27,532 nucleotides of DNA from a virus. The notes under the pieces were generated by a model. It searched no databases. It saw only the letters and a list, made by a program, of their open reading frames with translations, and was not told the origin of the DNA. Shown in pieces: positions 4,257-18,650 of this stretch. The DNA lies in the IMG/VR virus record IMGVR_UViG_3300032144_000037, positions 1 through 27,532 of that record. One strand, given 5' to 3'. Every line of letters starts with the position of its first letter. The stretch's first letter is position 1. The position numbers and the translations under genes were made by a program.

Positions 4257-7061
4257 ATGAGCAACCACCCCGAGCACGGGCACCCGGTGATCGGCTGCCT
4301 GGACTGCAACCAGGAGTCCGCGACCGCGGGTTTCCGAGGGAAGGAGACCACCGTGGATCTCGCCTGCCCGAACTGCGGGCACACATTCGCCGCCGAGGCC
4401 GGCCAGCCGGTGCCGGTCCGGGTCACCGAGTCCGTGGCCACTGGTCAGCCGGCCGCACCGGCCGACACGTGGCCGCTGGGCACGGCCGAGCAGGTGCTGA
4501 CCGCATGGCGTGAGACGCACCACCCCCGGGAGGCCTCCCGCTACCTGCCGGCCGCGCTCACCGAGCTGCACGACCGGATCCGCGCAGCCGCCACCGCCCA
4601 GACGGTGACGCTCCCGGACGCCGCGACCGTGGTCGAGGCGATCAACGGGGAACGCTCGAGCAACGACACCCGCGACCTGCTGCAGGTCGCACTCGAGGAA
4701 GCCGCCAAGGCTGCGGGTAGTTCCCCGTACGACTACTGCTACGCGTGGGTCCAGGACTTCACCGACACCATGGTCGTGTACCGCTCCGGCGGGAAGACCT
4801 GGCAGCGCACCTACGCACTGGCCCCCGTCGGGACGATCGGCACGATCACCTTCCTGGACGACCCGGTGCCGGTGATCGCCCAGACCTGGTACGTGCCGGC
4901 CGCCGGCGGCGACCCGACGATGCCCGCCGAAGCCGAGACCGACGTCATCATCGAGACCACGGGCCCGCCCGCAACGGCCGAGCGGGTCCGGATCCCCGGC
5001 CGGGTCCTGGAGGCCAAGGAGGACGACGCTACCGGCGGCCGGGTCTACCGGGTCCGGATCATCCAGGCCGGCGAGTCCAAGAACGGCCGGATCTACCCGG
5101 CCCAGGTCCTCGCGGCCGCGGCCTCGTTGTACGAGAACGCGAAGGCCTTCGACCACCACCGGACTCCGGAGGAGATGGCGTCCGGGACGATCCGCGGGAT
5201 GGTCGGGTACTACTCCGACGTCGCCTCCACCGGTGACGGCCTCGAAGCCGACCTGCACCTGCTGCCCTCCGCGGTGCACGCGGCCGAGGCCCTGGACGCC
5301 GCGCTCGCCGGCGAGACCGACGGCCGTGAACCCCTGGTCGGGCTCTCCCATGACGTCCAGGCCCTGTTCCGGCAGGTCAACCTCGGTGGGGCCCGGCGCA
5401 TGGAAGCCACGTCCATCGTGACCGTGAACTCCGCCGACGTCGTCGCCCACCCGGCGGCCGGCGGTAAGGCCACCCGGGCCGTCGCCGGTGGCCTGGACGA
5501 CGACACCGAGACCACGGATGACGCCGATTCCCCAACAACCCCCGCGGGCGGGCCGCCCGAAGAGATCACCGATCCAGAGGAGACTGATGTGACCGTCAGC
5601 ACCGAAGGTGTGCTCGCCGCTCTGAAGACAGCTACGCCGGAGCAGCTCGCTGCCGTCGGTCTGTCGCGGCCTGCCACCGAGACCATCACCCCGCCGGTCC
5701 CGGCAACCACCGACCCCGTCAGCGCCCGGGAGACCCTGGCCAAGACCTCGTTCCTCGGCAAGATGCTCGTCCGCTCGAAGGTGGCCGACGCGGGCCTGCC
5801 TGAGGCCGTGGCCGAGTCCCTGCTGGACGCGCTGCCCGACCAGGTCACCGAGGCCGACGTCGACGCGCAGGTCGCCTCCCTCAAGGGGGCCCTCGGGATC
5901 GCCGAACGCGCCCAGCTGGTGCCGACCGCCGCCGTCGCGGTGACCCAGGAGTCGCGGGACAAGAAGGTCAAGGCGCTGGACGCGTTCTTCACGCCCGGCG
6001 ACACCACCGGATACAACAGCTTCCGGGAGGCGTTCCTCGACTTCACCGGCGCCCGCCCGCGCAGCTGGGACGAGGACTTCAACAAGGTCATCCTCCGGGA
6101 GTCAATGGGCGGTGGGTACGACTCGGGCAGCACCGACGGGGACCGGCTGGTTGAGTCCGTGGCCAGCACCACCTGGGCCGCCGCACTCGGCGACTCGGTG
6201 ACCCGGCGCCTGGTCGCCGCCTACGCGCAGCCGTCGCTGCAGACGTGGCGGGCGATCGTGTCGAACATCTTCCCGGTGAACGACTTCCGTACCCAGCGGA
6301 TCGAGCGCATCGGTGGATACGGTGTCCTGCCGGCGGTCAACCAGGGCCAGCCGTACCAGCCGCTGACGAGCCCCACCAACGAGGAAGCCACGTACGCAGC
6401 GACCAAGCGCGGTGGCACCGAAGACCTCACCCTCGAGGCGATCGCCAACGACGACGTCCGGGCCATCAGCCTGATCCCCGACAAGCTCGCCCTGGCCGCC
6501 GCGCAGACCCTGTTCCGGTTCGTCTGGGACATCTTCCCGACGAATGCCGCGACCACGTACGACTCGACGGCTCTCTTCCACGCCACCCACAGCAACACCG
6601 ACAACCCGGCGGTGCTGAGCGACACGACGCTGGCGACCGGGCGGCGGAAGATGCGTCAGCAGGCGGCCTACGGCGACTCCTCGAACGTGCTGTCGTTCAT
6701 CCCGAAGTTCCTGGTGGTGCCGTCGGCGCTGGAGAACCTCGCGTTCCAGCTGACCGCATCGGCCGTCGCGGTCCCCGCTTCGGGCAACGCCTCGAACATC
6801 CCCAACCTGCACCAGGGTCTGCAGCCGATCGTCGTCGACTACTACAGCGACAACGACGACTGGTTCCTGGTCGCGGATCCGGCGCAGTGCCCGACCATCG
6901 AGCTCGGGTTCTACCAGGGGCAGCAGACCCCGCAGCTCTTCACCCAGTCCGACCCGAACGTGGGGAGCATGTTCGACGCGGACAAGATGACGTTGAAGGT
7001 GCGCCACATCTACGGCGGTGCTCCGGTCGAGCACCGCGGGTTCTACCGCGGCTCCAACTAG
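4257..7061 (+). CDS. fused prohead protease / major capsid protein
   Basis: One uninterrupted frame of 934 residues. Residues 1-45 hold a possible zinc ribbon (CLDC 14-17, CPNC 37-40). About 155-215 is a small beta domain. About 245-410 looks like a prohead protease of the herpesvirus-protease fold: NGRIYP (276-281), FDHHR with candidate catalytic His 300/301, and GLSHD with candidate Ser 364. An acidic, Pro/Thr-rich linker (412-445) precedes a scaffold-like helical region (446-560) and the capsid domain (about 565-934), which resembles Mu gpT-type heads (TALFHATHSNTDNP and a DWFLVADP stretch). Domain limits are estimates. Start: ATG 4257 has little Shine-Dalgarno support, whereas in-frame GTG 4353 follows a strong AAGGAG. 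An internal start at 5589 would give capsid alone. Confidence 0.85.
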   Translation: MSNHPEHGHPVIGCLDCNQESATAGFRGKETTVDLACPNCGHTFAAEAGQPVPVRVTESVATGQPAAPADTWPLGTAEQVLTAWRETHHPREASRYLPAALTELHDRIRAAATAQTVTLPDAATVVEAINGERSSNDTRDLLQVALEEAAKAAGSSPYDYCYAWVQDFTDTMVVYRSGGKTWQRTYALAPVGTIGTITFLDDPVPVIAQTWYVPAAGGDPTMPAEAETDVIIETTGPPATAERVRIPGRVLEAKEDDATGGRVYRVRIIQAGESKNGRIYPAQVLAAAASLYENAKAFDHHRTPEEMASGTIRGMVGYYSDVASTGDGLEADLHLLPSAVHAAEALDAALAGETDGREPLVGLSHDVQALFRQVNLGGARRMEATSIVTVNSADVVAHPAAGGKATRAVAGGLDDDTETTDDADSPTTPAGGPPEEITDPEETDVTVSTEGVLAALKTATPEQLAAVGLSRPATETITPPVPATTDPVSARETLAKTSFLGKMLVRSKVADAGLPEAVAESLLDALPDQVTEADVDAQVASLKGALGIAERAQLVPTAAVAVTQESRDKKVKALDAFFTPGDTTGYNSFREAFLDFTGARPRSWDEDFNKVILRESMGGGYDSGSTDGDRLVESVASTTWAAALGDSVTRRLVAAYAQPSLQTWRAIVSNIFPVNDFRTQRIERIGGYGVLPAVNQGQPYQPLTSPTNEEATYAATKRGGTEDLTLEAIANDDVRAISLIPDKLALAAAQTLFRFVWDIFPTNAATTYDSTALFHATHSNTDNPAVLSDTTLATGRRKMRQQAAYGDSSNVLSFIPKFLVVPSALENLAFQLTASAVAVPASGNASNIPNLHQGLQPIVVDYYSDNDDWFLVADPAQCPTIELGFYQGQQTPQLFTQSDPNVGSMFDADKMTLKVRHIYGGAPVEHRGFYRGSN
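4341..4355 (+). promoter_or_regulatory. strong ribosome site pointing to an alternative GTG start at 4353
   Basis: AAGGAG (4341-4346), within a longer purine run from 4336, stands six bases before GTG 4353, which is in frame with the protease-capsid gene. It would shorten the product to 902 residues and remove the first CxxC pair. ATG 4257 lies only three bases after the previous stop and has no comparable signal, although translational coupling could serve it. Both may be used. Confidence 0.6.
5576..5591 (+). promoter_or_regulatory. internal ribosome binding site for the capsid part
   Basis: AGAGGAG (5576-5582) lies six bases before GTG 5589, in frame with the long protease-capsid gene and exactly at the junction between the acidic linker and the scaffold/capsid part. 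Position and quality match the ribosome sites of ordinary genes in this window (for example 8572-8577 or 7904-7910). Confidence 0.7.
5589..7061 (+). CDS. nested major capsid protein from an internal start
   Basis: Starting at GTG 5589 the frame would give a 490-residue protein beginning MTVSTEGVLAALKTATPEQL. Its first 115 or so residues are helical and charged, like the delta/scaffold domain often fused to capsid proteins. The rest is the capsid domain. Phage heads need hundreds of capsid subunits but few protease molecules, so a separate start solves the ratio problem posed by the fusion. The strong Shine-Dalgarno site and its placement at a domain border are seen in the sequence; actual use of the start is inferred. 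The alternative is that only the fusion is made and then cleaved by its own protease. Confidence 0.65.
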   Translation: MTVSTEGVLAALKTATPEQLAAVGLSRPATETITPPVPATTDPVSARETLAKTSFLGKMLVRSKVADAGLPEAVAESLLDALPDQVTEADVDAQVASLKGALGIAERAQLVPTAAVAVTQESRDKKVKALDAFFTPGDTTGYNSFREAFLDFTGARPRSWDEDFNKVILRESMGGGYDSGSTDGDRLVESVASTTWAAALGDSVTRRLVAAYAQPSLQTWRAIVSNIFPVNDFRTQRIERIGGYGVLPAVNQGQPYQPLTSPTNEEATYAATKRGGTEDLTLEAIANDDVRAISLIPDKLALAAAQTLFRFVWDIFPTNAATTYDSTALFHATHSNTDNPAVLSDTTLATGRRKMRQQAAYGDSSNVLSFIPKFLVVPSALENLAFQLTASAVAVPASGNASNIPNLHQGLQPIVVDYYSDNDDWFLVADPAQCPTIELGFYQGQQTPQLFTQSDPNVGSMFDADKMTLKVRHIYGGAPVEHRGFYRGSN

Positions 7062-9526: not shown

Positions 9527-11020
9527 GTGCCGGCTGTAATCGCCTCCGGCCCGACGTTCGGCGACGGCTCGGGAGGCCTCACCGTCGTCAACGCGGCGCC
9601 GGCCGGGCTTACCGACCGGGACTGGCTGCTCGCGGTTCTGCTTTCGGACAACGACGGCGACGCCGCGGCGATGACCGCCCCGGCCGGGTGGTACCAGGTC
9701 AGCAGCTCCGCCGACACCGTCACCACACTGGGTGGTTTCGGGAAGATCTGGACCCGTCGCGCGGTCGATGCCGGCGCTGGGCCCTACAACTTCCCGGGCG
9801 GCTCCGGCTCGGACAACACCGGGTTCGTGTTCAGGATTGCCGGCGCGGACCCGGTGCAGTTGTTCGCGGCGCCGCCGGTGTGGGCGAATCCGGGCGCGGG
9901 TGCGACGACGTCGCTGATCGCGCCGTCGGTCACACCGGGCGGGTCCGGGTTGTTGATCTGCATGTTCATGCTCGAGGGAATGTTCGGCGGCAGCATCAGC
10001 CCGCCGGGCGGCATGAGCGGCACATCTGTCCTGAACGCCACGGGGTTCATGCAGACGCTGCCGGGCTCCGAGACCGTCCCACCAGGGCCCACCGGCACCC
10101 GGACGGCGACGGCGACCACCAGCGGTGCCAGCAACCTCCACGGCTTCCTGGCCGTCAGCATGGTCCTGGCCGACGACACCTCCAGCACGTACGCCGGCTG
10201 GTTCCTCGGCCCACCCACATTCGGGCGGCCGTGGGTGCCGGCGTCACCGCAATGGGCCGGCGGCGAGTTCATCCCGCCGCCGCAGGTCGAGGCCACCACG
10301 GGTGTCGGCGCGCTGGGCATGGCCTCCACCGCGGTGGTCCGCAAGGTCGTCGCGGTCACCGCCACGACCGGGCTCGGCCTGAGCAGCACCGGCACAGCCC
10401 AGAAGGTGACCAGGGCGGCCGGGACCGCCGCCCTGGCGGTCACCACAACCACGCTCGCCCGCAAGGCCACACCAGCCACCGGATCGGGCACCCTCGGCGT
10501 GGCCGGCACGGTGTCTGCTCGCAAGGCCTCGCCGGCCACCGGCGCCGCCACCACTGGCCTGGCCGGCACGGTCACCCTGCGGAAGACGACGCCAGCCGCG
10601 GCCCGGTCGCTGGCCGGCCTGGCCTCGACCACGGTGGCCCGGAAGGTCAGCCCGGTCACCGGGTCGGGCCTGGTCGGGTTCACATCGACCGGGCAGCTAG
10701 CGGACAGCAATGTCCGGGCCGTCACCGCTCGGACCCTGATCGGGCTGACCGGCAGCGCGCAGGCCCGCAAGCGGTCATCGGCGGCCGGGATCACCACCCT
10801 GGGAGCTACGTCCACCGGGACGATCCGCAAAGTCAGCGGCGTCCTGGCCGGCGCACGCTTCGGGATCACCACCTACTTCCAGTCGCCTGGGCGGGTGCAC
10901 GTCTACACCGGCACGGCATCCGTCAGCTCTCCCGCCTCGGGTGCCGCCGGCGTCACCGCGCCGCACGCCAGCGCCTCAAGCATCACCGCGACCCAGGCAG
11001 GGGAGGTGGCCGTGCAATGA
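9527..11020 (+). CDS. repeat-containing virion protein with shared N-terminal domain
   Basis: A 497-residue protein from GTG 9527 with GGAAGGGG (9514-9521) ahead. Residues 1-235 form a beta-rich domain (GLTDRDWLLAVLL, MTAPAGW, KIWTRRAV, GLLICMF, TGTRTATAT) that matches the N-terminal domain of the tail-tip protein at 18657. Residues about 258-460 consist of ten units with a strict 20-residue period, each ending in an Arg/Gln-Lys pair and rich in Thr, Ala, Gly and Ser. The last 35 residues are Ser/Ala-rich. The repeats suggest an extended fibre or a surface scaffold. The many Thr/Ser residues make it a candidate target for the glycosyltransferase at 13276, which is an inference from context only. 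Confidence 0.65.
   Translation: MPAVIASGPTFGDGSGGLTVVNAAPAGLTDRDWLLAVLLSDNDGDAAAMTAPAGWYQVSSSADTVTTLGGFGKIWTRRAVDAGAGPYNFPGGSGSDNTGFVFRIAGADPVQLFAAPPVWANPGAGATTSLIAPSVTPGGSGLLICMFMLEGMFGGSISPPGGMSGTSVLNATGFMQTLPGSETVPPGPTGTRTATATTSGASNLHGFLAVSMVLADDTSSTYAGWFLGPPTFGRPWVPASPQWAGGEFIPPPQVEATTGVGALGMASTAVVRKVVAVTATTGLGLSSTGTAQKVTRAAGTAALAVTTTTLARKATPATGSGTLGVAGTVSARKASPATGAATTGLAGTVTLRKTTPAAARSLAGLASTTVARKVSPVTGSGLVGFTSTGQLADSNVRAVTARTLIGLTGSAQARKRSSAAGITTLGATSTGTIRKVSGVLAGARFGITTYFQSPGRVHVYTGTASVSSPASGAAGVTAPHASASSITATQAGEVAVQ
10280..10880 (+). repeat. 60-bp coding tandem repeat, about ten diverged units
   Basis: The codons of the marker Arg-Lys (or Gln-Lys, Ala-Asp) pairs begin at 10340, 10400, 10460, 10520, 10580, 10640 and 10700, exactly 60 bases apart, then 10766 (a 6-base insertion) and 10826. 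The units are well diverged in DNA while keeping length and the protein pattern, so selection on the protein rather than recent copying explains them. They lie inside the gene at 9527. Confidence 0.85.
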
Positions 11021-12679: not shown

Positions 12680-13276
12680 ATGCACGCTGCCGCCCGCGCC
12701 TACGCCAAGTCCAAGTTGGCCGGCCAGCACTTCCCGAGCGTGGTCGAGATCGGGGGACGGAACATCAACGGTGGGGTCCGGGACCTGTTCACCTGCGACC
12801 GGTACGTGGCTCTCGACCTGGAGCCCGGCCCCGGCGTCGACGTCGTCGCCGACGCGATCGAGTGGCGCCCGGACGAACCGGTGGACCTGGTGATCTGCTG
12901 CGAGGTCCTGGAACACGAGGCAAGGCAGGAAGAACTGATCCGGGCCGCCCTGGCCTACCTGAAGCCCGGCGGCGCCCTGCTGGTCACCGCCGGTGGCCCG
13001 GGCCGGGCCCCGCACTCCGGTCACGACGGCGGCCCCCTGGCCGAGGGCGAGCACTACGCCAACCTCGACCCAGACAACCTCCAGCGGTGGTTCGAGGCCG
13101 CCGACCTGTACCCAGCGGAGGTGCACTACGCCGCGGGGGTCTGCGACGTCTACGGCTTCGGGACCACGCCTGAGGCCGGAGGGGTTGTCCGGGGGCAGAG
13201 GTTCATCGTCGGTGAGGAAGGCTGCGAGTTGTACCTCCCAGCCGTTGACGGCACGGTGTCCGGGATACCCGCCTGA
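12680..13276 (+). CDS. SAM-dependent methyltransferase with tape-measure-like C-terminal motif
   Basis: A 198-residue class I methyltransferase. Motif I is VVEIGGR (21-27), the acidic residue ending strand 2 is D46 in VALDLEPG, and later motifs are VICCEVLEHE (71-80) and LKPGG (94-98), as in Methyltransf_11 proteins. The target is unknown. The C-terminal 32 residues are odd: GGVVRGQRFIVGEEG (167-181) followed by CELYLPAVDG repeats the motif at the end of tape measure proteins, including the one encoded here. The gene abuts the preceding stop and overlaps the glycosyltransferase (TGATG), so the pair is translated together. Modification of virion proteins or glycans is the likely role. Confidence 0.8.
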   Translation: MHAAARAYAKSKLAGQHFPSVVEIGGRNINGGVRDLFTCDRYVALDLEPGPGVDVVADAIEWRPDEPVDLVICCEVLEHEARQEELIRAALAYLKPGGALLVTAGGPGRAPHSGHDGGPLAEGEHYANLDPDNLQRWFEAADLYPAEVHYAAGVCDVYGFGTTPEAGGVVRGQRFIVGEEGCELYLPAVDGTVSGIPA

Positions 13277-14346
13277 TGCGGTGGGTGGTCGGCCAGCCCG
13301 GGCCCTCCTGGAGCGTTCACGACGTCTACGTCGGGTGGGTCGAGGCGCTGCGGCAGCTCGGCGAGGACGTCCACACCTTCAACCTGGACGACCGGCTCGC
13401 GTTGTACGACCACGCACTGATCGACATCGGTGACCCAGGCCCGAACGGTGAACTGAAGCTCCGGAAGGCCTTGACGGTCGAGCAGGCGAAAGAGCTGGCC
13501 GTGAACGGGCTTCCGGCGATGCTGTGGAAGGTCCGCCCGCAGGTTCTGCTGCTGGTGTGCGGGTTCTTCGTCCCGTACGAACTGCTCGATCACGCCCGCC
13601 GCACCGGGACCCGTGTGGTGATCATCCACACCGAGGAACCGTATGAGGTCGAGCGGGAGCTGGAGCTGGCCGCGCATGCCGACCTGAACCTGATCACCGA
13701 TCCGACCCACCTGGATCGGTTCACCGCGGTCGCGCCGACCGTGTTCGCTCCGCACGCCTACCGGCCGGCCGTCCACCACCCCGGGCCCGGCCCGGTCGAC
13801 CTCGTGTCGGATCTGGCGTTCGTCGGGACGGGGTTCGGTTCGCGCCGGTGGTTCCTGGAGCAGTTGCACGCCAGCGGCGCCCTGGACGGCCTGGACGTCC
13901 TCCTGGCCGGCAACTGGCAGGGCCTGGCCGATGCGTCGCCCCTGCGGGCATTCCTGGCCTCGGGTGACCCGGAAAAGTGTTGCGACAACGAGCAGACGGC
14001 GGACATCTACCGGGCCGCCCGGATGGGCATCAACCTCTACCGGCGTGAGCACGACGACAACGCCGACGCCGCCGGTCTGGCGATGGGCCCGCGTGAGGTG
14101 GAGATGGCCGCGTGTGGACTGTTCTTCCTGCGCGACCCCCGCCCCGAGGGCGACGCGGTGTTCCCGATGCTGCCGACCTTCGCTGGCCCGGGCGAGGCCG
14201 CCGAGCTGATCCGCTGGTGGTCCACGCACCCCGACCAGCGTGCTGCTGCCGCCGCGATGGCGCGAGAGGCGATCGCGGACAGGACGTTCGCCCAGTCCGC
14301 AACCAATCTGCTCCGGCTGCTCGGCCGGCAGCCGGTCACCACCTGA
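13276..14346 (+). CDS. CgeB-like glycosyltransferase (GT-B type)
   Basis: A 356-residue protein with the features of the CgeB/Glyco_trans_1_2 group. A GT-B N-terminal half has short Rossmann strands (PQVLLLVCGFF at 89-99, RVVIIHTEEPYE at 113-124). A middle segment reads DLAFVGTGFGSRRWFLEQL (179-197). The donor-site motif GPREVEMAACGLFFLRD (271-287) carries the acid expected to hold the sugar nucleotide, and the C-terminal helix pattern includes HPDQRAAAAAMAREAI. It would transfer a sugar from a nucleotide donor; acceptor and sugar are not shown. Placement within morphogenesis genes and overlap with the methyltransferase suggest glycan decoration of virion proteins. Confidence 0.82.
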   Translation: MRWVVGQPGPSWSVHDVYVGWVEALRQLGEDVHTFNLDDRLALYDHALIDIGDPGPNGELKLRKALTVEQAKELAVNGLPAMLWKVRPQVLLLVCGFFVPYELLDHARRTGTRVVIIHTEEPYEVERELELAAHADLNLITDPTHLDRFTAVAPTVFAPHAYRPAVHHPGPGPVDLVSDLAFVGTGFGSRRWFLEQLHASGALDGLDVLLAGNWQGLADASPLRAFLASGDPEKCCDNEQTADIYRAARMGINLYRREHDDNADAAGLAMGPREVEMAACGLFFLRDPRPEGDAVFPMLPTFAGPGEAAELIRWWSTHPDQRAAAAAMAREAIADRTFAQSATNLLRLLGRQPVTT

Positions 14347-14361
14347 AAGAGAGGGCCCACC

Positions 14362-14760
14362 ATGTCCCGTATCCACGGCCGCGCCGGTCGCGTCTACATC
14401 AACCTGACCTCCGGTGGCACCGCCGAGCCGGTCGCGTTCCTGTCCGGCTGGTCGATCAACTTCGCCGTTGACAAGTCCGACGTCACCGCGTTCGGTGACC
14501 CCAACAAGGTCTACGTCTCCGGACTCCCCGACGCCAGCGGAGATTTCAGCGGGTTCTACGACGACGCCACCGTCCAGGTCTACAACGCGGCCGTGGACGG
14601 GGTGGCCCGGAAGTTCTACCTCTACCCCTCCACGAACACGTCCGGGCAGTACTGGTGGGGGACGATCCTGCCCGACTTCAAGGTCAACGGCGACGTCGGC
14701 GGCCCCGTCCAGATCAGCTCGTCCTGGAACGCCGCCAGCCCCATCGCCAAGGTCGGGTAG
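14362..14760 (+). CDS. major tail tube protein
   Basis: A 132-residue protein with a good GAGAGGG signal before ATG 14362. The sequence pattern is that of siphovirus tail-tube proteins: an N-terminal Gly-rich strand (GRVYINLTSGG), LSGWSINFAVDKSDVTAFGDPNKVYVSG with the characteristic aspartates, then DFSGFYDD, FYLYPSTNTSGQYWWGT and a final ISSSWNAAS strand. It polymerises into the tube around the tape measure protein. Length is short but usual for actinophages. Immediate neighbours (chaperone, tape measure) agree. Confidence 0.82.
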   Translation: MSRIHGRAGRVYINLTSGGTAEPVAFLSGWSINFAVDKSDVTAFGDPNKVYVSGLPDASGDFSGFYDDATVQVYNAAVDGVARKFYLYPSTNTSGQYWWGTILPDFKVNGDVGGPVQISSSWNAASPIAKVG

Positions 14761-15811: not shown

Positions 15812-18650
15812 GGAACTCGCGTTCGACCTGGTCCTCAAGGACAAAGGCGCGAACGACGGGATCGCCGAGCTCGGGCGCACCAGCGCCGCGGCGGCCCTGA
15901 AGATCGACCAGGCGAACATCAGGGTCGAGAAGAGCGCCCGGACTGCCGCCGCGGCTGAGGAGAAGTTCGGCAAGGGCAGCCTTGAGGCCCGCGACGCGGC
16001 GCTCAAGCTCGTCGCTGCGCAGCAGAACCTCGAGAAGTCCCTGCGCGGGACCGAGCAGGCCGCGGAGGAAGCCGAGACCGGCGTCAAGGGCGTCACCGCG
16101 GCGCTGGTCGCCGGCGGCACGGGGGCCGCTGTCGGGTTCGGTGCCGCGATGGTCAAGTCCCTGAACATCGAGGCCGGCGTCGACAAGCTGCAGGGCCAGC
16201 TCGGCGCCACGGTCAAGGAAGCCGAGCGGTACGGGAAGGTCGCCGGGGACGTCTACGGCGCGAACTTCGGCGAGTCGATGGACCAGGTCAACGAGGCCAT
16301 CGTCAACGTCCGGCAGAACATCGGTGACCTCGGCGACGTCGGGTCGTCGTCTCTGCAGTCGATCACCGAGGACACCCTGTCGCTGGTGCAGGCCTTCGGC
16401 GTCGACCTGTTCGGGGTCACCAAGGCCGCCGGCACCCTGCTGCGGACCGGGCTGGCCCCGGACGCGCAGTACGCCCTCGACCTGATCACCGTCGGGCTGC
16501 AGAAGATCCCCGGCGCACAGGAAGACCTCCTCGACACCCTGACCGAGTACGCGGTCCAGTTCGCAGCGCTCGGCCTGAAAGGTGACCAGGTCCTCGCGTT
16601 CATCTCCTCCGCGATGCAGGGTGGGGCCCGGAACACCGACCTCGCTGCTGATGCCCTGAAGGAGTTCAACCTCCGGGCCCGGGACACCACGAACACCGGC
16701 GCTCAAGCGGCGATCGCCGAGCTCGGCCTGTCCTCGTCCCGGACCGCTGAGGCGATCGCCGGGGGAGGTGCCGGAGCGGTCGCGGCGATGACGGAGCTGC
16801 TGACCCGGTTGCGGGAGATCCCCGATCCGGCCGACCGGTCCCGCCTGGCTACCGCGCTGCTGGGCACGCAGGCCGAGGACCTGCAGCAGGCCCTGTTCGC
16901 GGTCGACCCGCAGCAGTTCACTCAGGGCCTGGAGGGCATCGCCGGGGCAGCGGACAACCTGAACAACACCCTCGGCGACAACGGCGCCGCGAAGATCGAG
17001 ACCTACAAGCGGCAGCTCGAACTGATGATCAACAGCGCCGCCGGCGTCGACGGACCGTTCGGTGTCGCCGCGGCCGCGACAGCTGCCTACGGGGCGGACG
17101 CGGTTACCGCGGCCGGGTCGATCGGCCCGCTGATCGGTGGGCTGTCCCTGATCCCGGGGGTCGCACCCCGGGTGACCGCGCTGATGACCCGGCTCGGTGA
17201 CGCGTTCGCGTCGTCGGCCGGGCGGATCAACGCCAACCGTGGGGCCCTGGTCAAGGGCGGGCTGGCACTGACCGCCTACGTCGTCGCCATGGAAGCGCTC
17301 GGAAAGTTCGGTCCGAAGGCTGAAGACGCCGCCCTCTCGGTCGGTGAGGTCCAGTTGCAGCTGTCGAAGCTCGCGAAGGGCACCGCCGAGGGTGGGGCCA
17401 CCCTGGGGAAGAACTTCAGTGAGATCGGCAGCCAGCTCAGCGACCTGGCGGATCCGACCTTCGCCCGGCGTTTCGAGGACCTCAACGGCGTGGTCTTCAA
17501 ACTGTTTTCCCTCGGCAACACCGGGTCATTCCAGGGCGGCGACGCTCGCCGTGAGTTCGTCGCGGACCTGAAGAACATCGACGCTGCCCTGACCCAGGCC
17601 GTGCAGTCCGGGAACGCCGATCAGGCCGCGCAGCAGTTCCGGGAGCTCAACGAGACCGCGATCGAGGGGGGCGCGGGCGTCGACCAGCTGGCGCGGCACC
17701 TGCCCAACTATGTCGAGGCGGTCGCCGCCGCCGGTGCGACGTCGGGCAGCACGGTGACTCAGGTGAAGGACCTGGCCCGCGGGCTGGGCACGCAGGCCGA
17801 GCTGACCGACTCCGCGACAGAGGCGACGGCAGAGCTGAACAAGGAGATGAAGACCTACGCCGACGCGCTGCTGGAGCTGCGCGGCGACCAGCGGTCCTTC
17901 GAGGCCGCCGTCGACGACGCAGCCTCTAGCGTGAAGGAGAACGGGGCCACCCTCGACATCACCACGGAGAAGGGCCGCAACAACGCCGCCGCCCTGGACG
18001 AGATCGCCAGTGCCGGGCTGAAACTGGCCGAGCAGACCCCGAAAGGCGTCGACGCGCAGAAGCACTTCGCCGACACCATCGCCACCACCAGGGCGAGACT
18101 GATCGACGCCGCCGACAAGATGGGGTTGACCCGGGGGCAGGCCCGAAAGCTCGCCGAGAGCATTCTCGGGGTCCCCAGATCCCGGAACTTCCGTTTCACC
18201 AACAACATCGACGCGAACATCGCGAAGGTCCGCGGCCTGCGCGCACAGATCAACACCGTTGCGGGCAAGACGTACTCGTACACGATCCGGGAAATCCTGA
18301 CCAGCGAGAACCGCCGTGACGCCGCGATCGCCGGGCGCCGGGCCACCGGTGGTCCGGTCGCCGGCGGCAAGACGTACATCGTGGGTGAGCGCGGGCAGGA
18401 ACTGTTCGTCCCGAAAGAGGACGGGTTCATTCTCCCGGAGGTCCCCCGGCCGGGGTTGCCGCCGGTATCCCGCAAGCCCTACCAGGTCGGCGTCGGCGTC
18501 GAGTCACCCAACCGGGCCGCGCGCCTGGAGCTCGCGATCGTGGCCGGCCCGAACACCGTCGACCAGCTCCTGGTCGAGGTCCTGCGCAACGCGATCCGGC
18601 TCAGGGCCGGCGGCAACGTCCAGGCCGCTCTCGGATCAGGCAGGGGGTGA
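15804..18650 (+). CDS. tape measure protein
   Basis: A 948-residue protein with a GAGGGGG signal ahead of ATG 15804. The N-terminal 95 residues are a charged coiled coil (LKIDQANIRVEKSARTAAAA). Hydrophobic, Gly/Ala-rich segments appear near 95-115 and 415-450. Helical, Ala-rich tape sequence fills most of the rest, and the C-terminus carries the usual motif GGPVAGGKTYIVGERGQELF (about 848-867) followed by VPKEDG. By the usual rule of about 0.15 nm per residue the tail would be near 140 nm. The protein sets tail length, fills the tube and is ejected ahead of DNA. It is the longest helical gene of the region after the two chaperone forms, as expected. Confidence 0.92.
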   Translation: MGEELAFDLVLKDKGANDGIAELGRTSAAAALKIDQANIRVEKSARTAAAAEEKFGKGSLEARDAALKLVAAQQNLEKSLRGTEQAAEEAETGVKGVTAALVAGGTGAAVGFGAAMVKSLNIEAGVDKLQGQLGATVKEAERYGKVAGDVYGANFGESMDQVNEAIVNVRQNIGDLGDVGSSSLQSITEDTLSLVQAFGVDLFGVTKAAGTLLRTGLAPDAQYALDLITVGLQKIPGAQEDLLDTLTEYAVQFAALGLKGDQVLAFISSAMQGGARNTDLAADALKEFNLRARDTTNTGAQAAIAELGLSSSRTAEAIAGGGAGAVAAMTELLTRLREIPDPADRSRLATALLGTQAEDLQQALFAVDPQQFTQGLEGIAGAADNLNNTLGDNGAAKIETYKRQLELMINSAAGVDGPFGVAAAATAAYGADAVTAAGSIGPLIGGLSLIPGVAPRVTALMTRLGDAFASSAGRINANRGALVKGGLALTAYVVAMEALGKFGPKAEDAALSVGEVQLQLSKLAKGTAEGGATLGKNFSEIGSQLSDLADPTFARRFEDLNGVVFKLFSLGNTGSFQGGDARREFVADLKNIDAALTQAVQSGNADQAAQQFRELNETAIEGGAGVDQLARHLPNYVEAVAAAGATSGSTVTQVKDLARGLGTQAELTDSATEATAELNKEMKTYADALLELRGDQRSFEAAVDDAASSVKENGATLDITTEKGRNNAAALDEIASAGLKLAEQTPKGVDAQKHFADTIATTRARLIDAADKMGLTRGQARKLAESILGVPRSRNFRFTNNIDANIAKVRGLRAQINTVAGKTYSYTIREILTSENRRDAAIAGRRATGGPVAGGKTYIVGERGQELFVPKEDGFILPEVPRPGLPPVSRKPYQVGVGVESPNRAARLELAIVAGPNTVDQLLVEVLRNAIRLRAGGNVQAALGSGRG

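Follow-up and report, generated by a model that had tools for sequence, protein, structure and literature searches.

According to PMC11256854, glycosyltransferases are found among the structural genes of phages, as in the virion-glycosylation gene set of mycobacteriophage Che8, and those of mycobacteriophages reportedly glycosylate virion proteins (Freeman et al. 2023, as cited there). Tape measure proteins (TMPs) of several families (phrog_30701, phrog_33680, phrog_1538, and others) carry the motif VGExGxEL[FY]xP, which is preceded by a TMP domain and followed by another 37 to 69 residues. In the TMP of JBD30, the terminal residues were resolved in the baseplate, and a hook is predicted for the region that precedes the terminal domain (PMC11445458). 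Furthermore, the contractile injection system effector Sle1 is related to TMPs and links its activity to a TMP-like part (PMC13277306).

We analyzed a methyltransferase gene in a window of 27,532 bases (the whole stretch of DNA studied), which constitutes one record of a single uncultured virus. The locus resembles the Che8-type sets cited in PMC11256854 in that a glycosyltransferase, accompanied here by a methyltransferase, lies among structural genes; the target protein and sugar are putative here. The methyltransferase ends in ...PEAGGVVRGQRFIVGEEGCELYLPAVDGTVSGIPA, and this end contains a phrase, GGVVRGQRFIVGEEGCELYLPAVDGTV, that resembles the TMP motif. The features of the locus are listed in Table 1.

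Table 1. Features of the methyltransferase locus and of the tape measure gene, in window coordinates
Feature	Position	Strand	Evidence or remark
SAM-dependent methyltransferase ORF, 198 aa	12680-13276	+	ATG start directly adjoins the stop codon of the gene before it
SAM-dependent methyltransferase core, residues 1-162	12680..13165	+	PF13489, phrog_32762, AF2 pLDDT
C-terminal extension, 36 residues, absent from all homologues	13166..13273	+	Alignments, pLDDT, GC3
TMP-like motif GGVVRGQRFIVGEEGCELYLPAVDGTV, residues 167-193	13178..13258	+	Profile match, domain 23.2 bits, sequence E 3e-7
Glycosyltransferase, start overlapping the methyltransferase stop (TGATG)	13276..14346	+	PF13524 4.7e-13
Major tail protein	14362..14760	+	phrog_10528 8.4e-10
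Tape measure protein (TMP), 948 aa	15804..18650	+	PF10145 1.2e-17, phrog_1272 1.9e-23
TMP motif GRRATGGPVAGGKTYIVGERGQELFVPKEDGFILPE, 69 aa before the TMP end	18333..18440	+	Profile match, 57.7 bits

The core of the enzyme is that of a small phage methyltransferase. It matched PF13489 (3.5e-10) and, over residues 20 to 161, phrog_32762 (3.6e-15); the score against PF13489 (Methyltransf_23) was 40.3 bits, above the curated cutoff of 27. AlphaFold2, run with an alignment of 12 homologues, modeled residues 1 to 165 with high confidence (pLDDT > 90 across most of residues 1 to 160), and structure comparison of this model revealed a predicted fold resembling class I methyltransferases. Searches of Pfam and PHROG yielded no TMP family match on the enzyme, which is only 198 aa long. 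With the phage methyltransferases of phrog_32762 and PF13489 it shares the whole core, the conserved residues, the length up to about residue 162, and the neighborhood of a glycosyltransferase, but the 36-residue motif-bearing tail occurs in no member examined other than the present enzyme.

A comparison within the family led to the same result. Among distinct homologues from viral and bacterial contigs (median length, 166 aa), 104 of 118 end by residue 180, and the enzyme runs 36 residues past its core. Since none of the 117 other distinct homologues carries the motif, it is foreign to the methyltransferase family; the earlier note had seen no reason for it in such an enzyme. The nearest relatives, L255 (68% core identity) and L256 (57%), are both syntenic with the same glycosyltransferase, and both lack the motif tail.

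We then asked how far the likeness to the TMP is real. Local alignment of the enzyme tail with TMP residues 844 to 876 gave a score of 69, and the highest score reached by 3,000 shuffles of the tail was 58. Likewise, a tblastn search of the contig with the enzyme as query picked the TMP site (E 7.9e-4). Both of these tests are independent of the DNA pattern with which TMP motifs were gathered. With the enzyme left out, 113 TMP motifs were combined into a profile, which gave the enzyme 24.7 bits (E 3e-7) in a six-frame search of the window, second only to the TMP, although this E-value is slightly flattering because part of the conservation was imposed by the gathering pattern. That pattern had fixed the profile columns V, G, E, G, E, L, F/Y, and P beforehand, so that independent conservation is limited to GG, V, and G-x-[IV] and to what the unbiased tests show. 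In a comparison with 38,880 PHROG families, the top two matches of the tail were the same two families that were best for the TMP motif, albeit weakly (E 0.012 and 0.015). The similarity described in the earlier note is thus significant in the alignment, in tblastn, and in the profile comparison. Neither of the two outcomes that the note had named as refuting it, an insignificant profile comparison or a motif normal to the methyltransferase family, was obtained. Other matches of the tail were discarded: those to phage tail-tube and RNA polymerase genes (E 0.5 to 9) were treated as chance, and phrog_4819, a 58-aa family with a weak match (E 0.18), had no match in 60 genomes and one weak match in 369.

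These results bear directly on the possibility that a small downstream ORF or an untranslated spacer became fused to the gene and resembles the motif by coincidence. The phrase is short, with many G, E, and V residues, and the site was singled out by a reader scanning many sequences, both of which speak for such a convergence. De novo extension does occur at this junction, since L256 has a separate small ORF and L255 an unrelated 62-aa extension at the same place. However, no shuffle attained the observed score, the alignment is ungapped over 26 residues, the best TMP match at the DNA level shares identical synonymous codons, and the enzyme was the only frame not of TMP type to score at E 0.01 or better among 332 loci (63,243 frames). 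We therefore regard chance convergence of a short motif as unlikely, and as less likely than a graft from a TMP. A frameshift origin from the L255 extension was rejected as well, as the DNA could not be aligned beyond the core and no frame yielded the motif.

In detail, the enzyme tail has the core positions of the TMP motif in the same order and at the same distances, has the same G-T-[IV] end, and carries a GG upstream. Against the TMP consensus GG..V....Y.VGE.GPELF.P..SG.I, it gives the profile match reported above but departs at two points: its GG is shifted by one residue, and GCE stands in place of GPE, which is nearly fixed in TMPs. On these two points the description in the earlier note needs correction. 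GCE was not found in any other viral contig. The core residues of the motif are either retained or exchanged for similar ones (Y to F, F to Y, V to L). Moreover, the motif had been described as the C terminus of the TMP, which it is not: the TMP carries RATGGPVAGGKTYIVGERGQELFVPKEDGFILP at the motif site, and 69 residues follow downstream. A helix was modeled at TMP residues 919 to 934, at low confidence, in a model of the whole TMP that was made without an alignment and was otherwise uninformative. The enzyme, in contrast to the TMPs, has neither a TMP domain before the motif nor a comparable terminal-helix segment after it, where only five residues remain.

For most of residues 173 to 196, the AlphaFold2 model gave a pLDDT below 50 and no secondary structure. 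The methyltransferase may thus consist of a folded core and a tail that is modeled, at low confidence, as disordered and flexible; this low confidence is not proof of disorder, because the alignment held no homologues for the tail. The earlier note had raised the possibility that the tail brings the enzyme to the tail tip, chaperones, or virion. Read in this way, it would be a functional targeting tag that mimics a TMP segment and docks on the tail-assembly chaperone, the baseplate hub, or the tail lumen, so that tail proteins are modified during assembly or the enzyme is carried into the next host. The position of the motif, at the C terminus of an enzyme whose gene lies shortly before those of the major tail protein and the TMP, is consistent with this idea, as are the retained or conservatively changed core residues. 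TMPs are themselves cargo of the tail lumen, and contractile particles can be loaded with TMP-related effectors (PMC13277306); the hook predicted just before the terminal domain of the JBD30 TMP would anchor it in the baseplate (PMC11445458). However, the TMP part resolved in the baseplates of JBD30 and lambda comprises the last 25 to 33 residues, for which the enzyme has no equivalent, and the TMP homology of Sle1 is a coiled coil of 440 aa with an associated partner protein (PMC13277306), whereas the enzyme has a motif of 27 residues. Furthermore, in the related phages L014, L056, and L258, TMP-length frames contain the motif, yet the methyltransferases are untagged.

The search for other tagged proteins points in the same direction. 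No non-TMP protein with the motif was found among at least 120 pattern matches in viral contigs and their ORFs, in 682 bacterial genomes (297 of one class and 385 of another), or among 60 of 954 phage records, and the list of further non-tape phage proteins with this ending suggested in the earlier note therefore holds no second case from these sources. The motif-bearing frames that were found were TMPs, frames of TMP length, short TMP frames like those of gene transfer agents, or, taken as a group, unnamed hypothetical proteins. Among solved structures, one weak motif match was obtained (chain 25vf_5), which is annotated as a lambda-type tape measure. In a sample from an alphaproteobacterial class, the motif also occurs in short frames of about 180 to 280 aa (L346 to L363 and similar) that resemble gene transfer agent tape measures. 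With relatives untagged, the baseplate segment of the TMP absent from the tail, and a single example at hand, the proposed recruitment of the enzyme is unsupported; we hold a targeting tag to be improbable, though a serious alternative, and the tail is in our view more likely a passenger than a tag that works. More doubtful still is the broader proposal that the TMP motif is a portable docking signal of tail assembly that was moved onto the methyltransferase, with the enzyme acting on or traveling in the tail.

Inspection of the gene neighborhood revealed that the glycosyltransferase is the constant syntenic partner of the methyltransferase in the relatives. In two loci (L262:2696-4315 and L316:1219-2802), the two enzymes are fused in a single chain (PF13524) at the same position in the gene order, ahead of the major tail protein, and L400 has a likewise combined methyltransferase-glycosyltransferase layout, as judged by sequence. 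Other partners occur as well: in a phage structural region, L378:1898-2965 joins a homologue to a second methyltransferase domain (PF13578) in an apparent double methyltransferase, and L417:3001-4257 carries, fused C-terminally to the methyltransferase, a domain of about 260 aa that has no Pfam match. The 3' end of the methyltransferase gene is a repeated joining site, mostly for partners of the same pathway. These fusions support both a sugar-modifying pair and the joining of a TMP-like piece by recombination. Adjacency to a glycosyltransferase and occasional fusion with it, as for the sugar-modifying methyltransferase of a virion glycosylation pair, are thus present, and methylation of a glycan on a virion protein would be the most economical putative role of the enzyme.

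On balance, we consider it probable that a TMP fragment was grafted by recombination onto the methyltransferase of this glycosyltransferase pair and that the tail is tolerated cargo. The small methyltransferase and its neighboring glycosyltransferase would work together, the methyl group most likely going to a sugar on a virion protein. At a junction that seems to accept additions repeatedly, some 30 codons of a tape measure gene would have been joined in frame to the 3' end of its gene in this lineage, the donor more likely being the TMP of a foreign phage than the phage's own. The outcome would be a folded enzyme with a flexible and presumably near-neutral tail, probably cargo with little or no function and at most a weak contact with tail-assembly proteins.

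An origin of the tail by duplication within the phage was rejected. Over 26 codons, the phage's own TMP agrees with the tail at 12 of 26 residues (46% amino acid identity) and at 56% of the DNA, about what unrelated TMPs reach (mean, 10.9 of 26 residues). The closest TMP motif belongs to another virus, L154 (15 of 26 residues, 64% DNA identity, and an identical run of 18 bases, ATCGTCGGTGAGGAAGGC), and no further viral contig has the IVGEEG-ELY form; being the best of many, the L154 match is no more than suggestive. No donor with high DNA identity to the tail was found. G+C at third codon positions was lower in the tail (28 of 36) than in the core (0.92; uncorrected p 0.008), which fits a recent arrival. 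Counted against a graft are the GCE variant, seen in no other viral contig, and the conservation of the motif core, which could mean selection for function rather than carriage as a passenger. The phrase is too short (27 residues, about 24 bits), and its single known example too isolated, for descent from a TMP to be provable.

A protease or degradation signal, or an artifact of metagenomic contig assembly, is highly improbable. The former had been put forward in the earlier note as a protease recognition sequence, and the window does come from one uncultured virus. Yet the enzyme has E at the position at which R or K prevails in TMPs, and the cleavage site proposed for JBD30, itself speculation, lies at an Arg outside such a motif (PMC11445458). 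As to an artifact, the reading frame is unbroken, and its overlap with the next start codon recurs in the relatives.

If the tail is functional, the widespread and unexplained TMP motif would be a separable signal, and the enzyme would offer a direct test of its binding partner. If it is not, the gene is an instance of gene-end grafting at the methyltransferase-glycosyltransferase junction in phage structural operons, a junction that appears to collect fusions.

Two further ORFs of the window were noted. At 9527-11020, a 497-aa protein without a family match contains internal degenerate repeats of about 20 to 25 residues (..TGVGALGMASTAVVRKV..). At 4257-7061, a 934-aa ORF matches families of both head maturation proteases and major head proteins, and it is seemingly a protease-capsid fusion.
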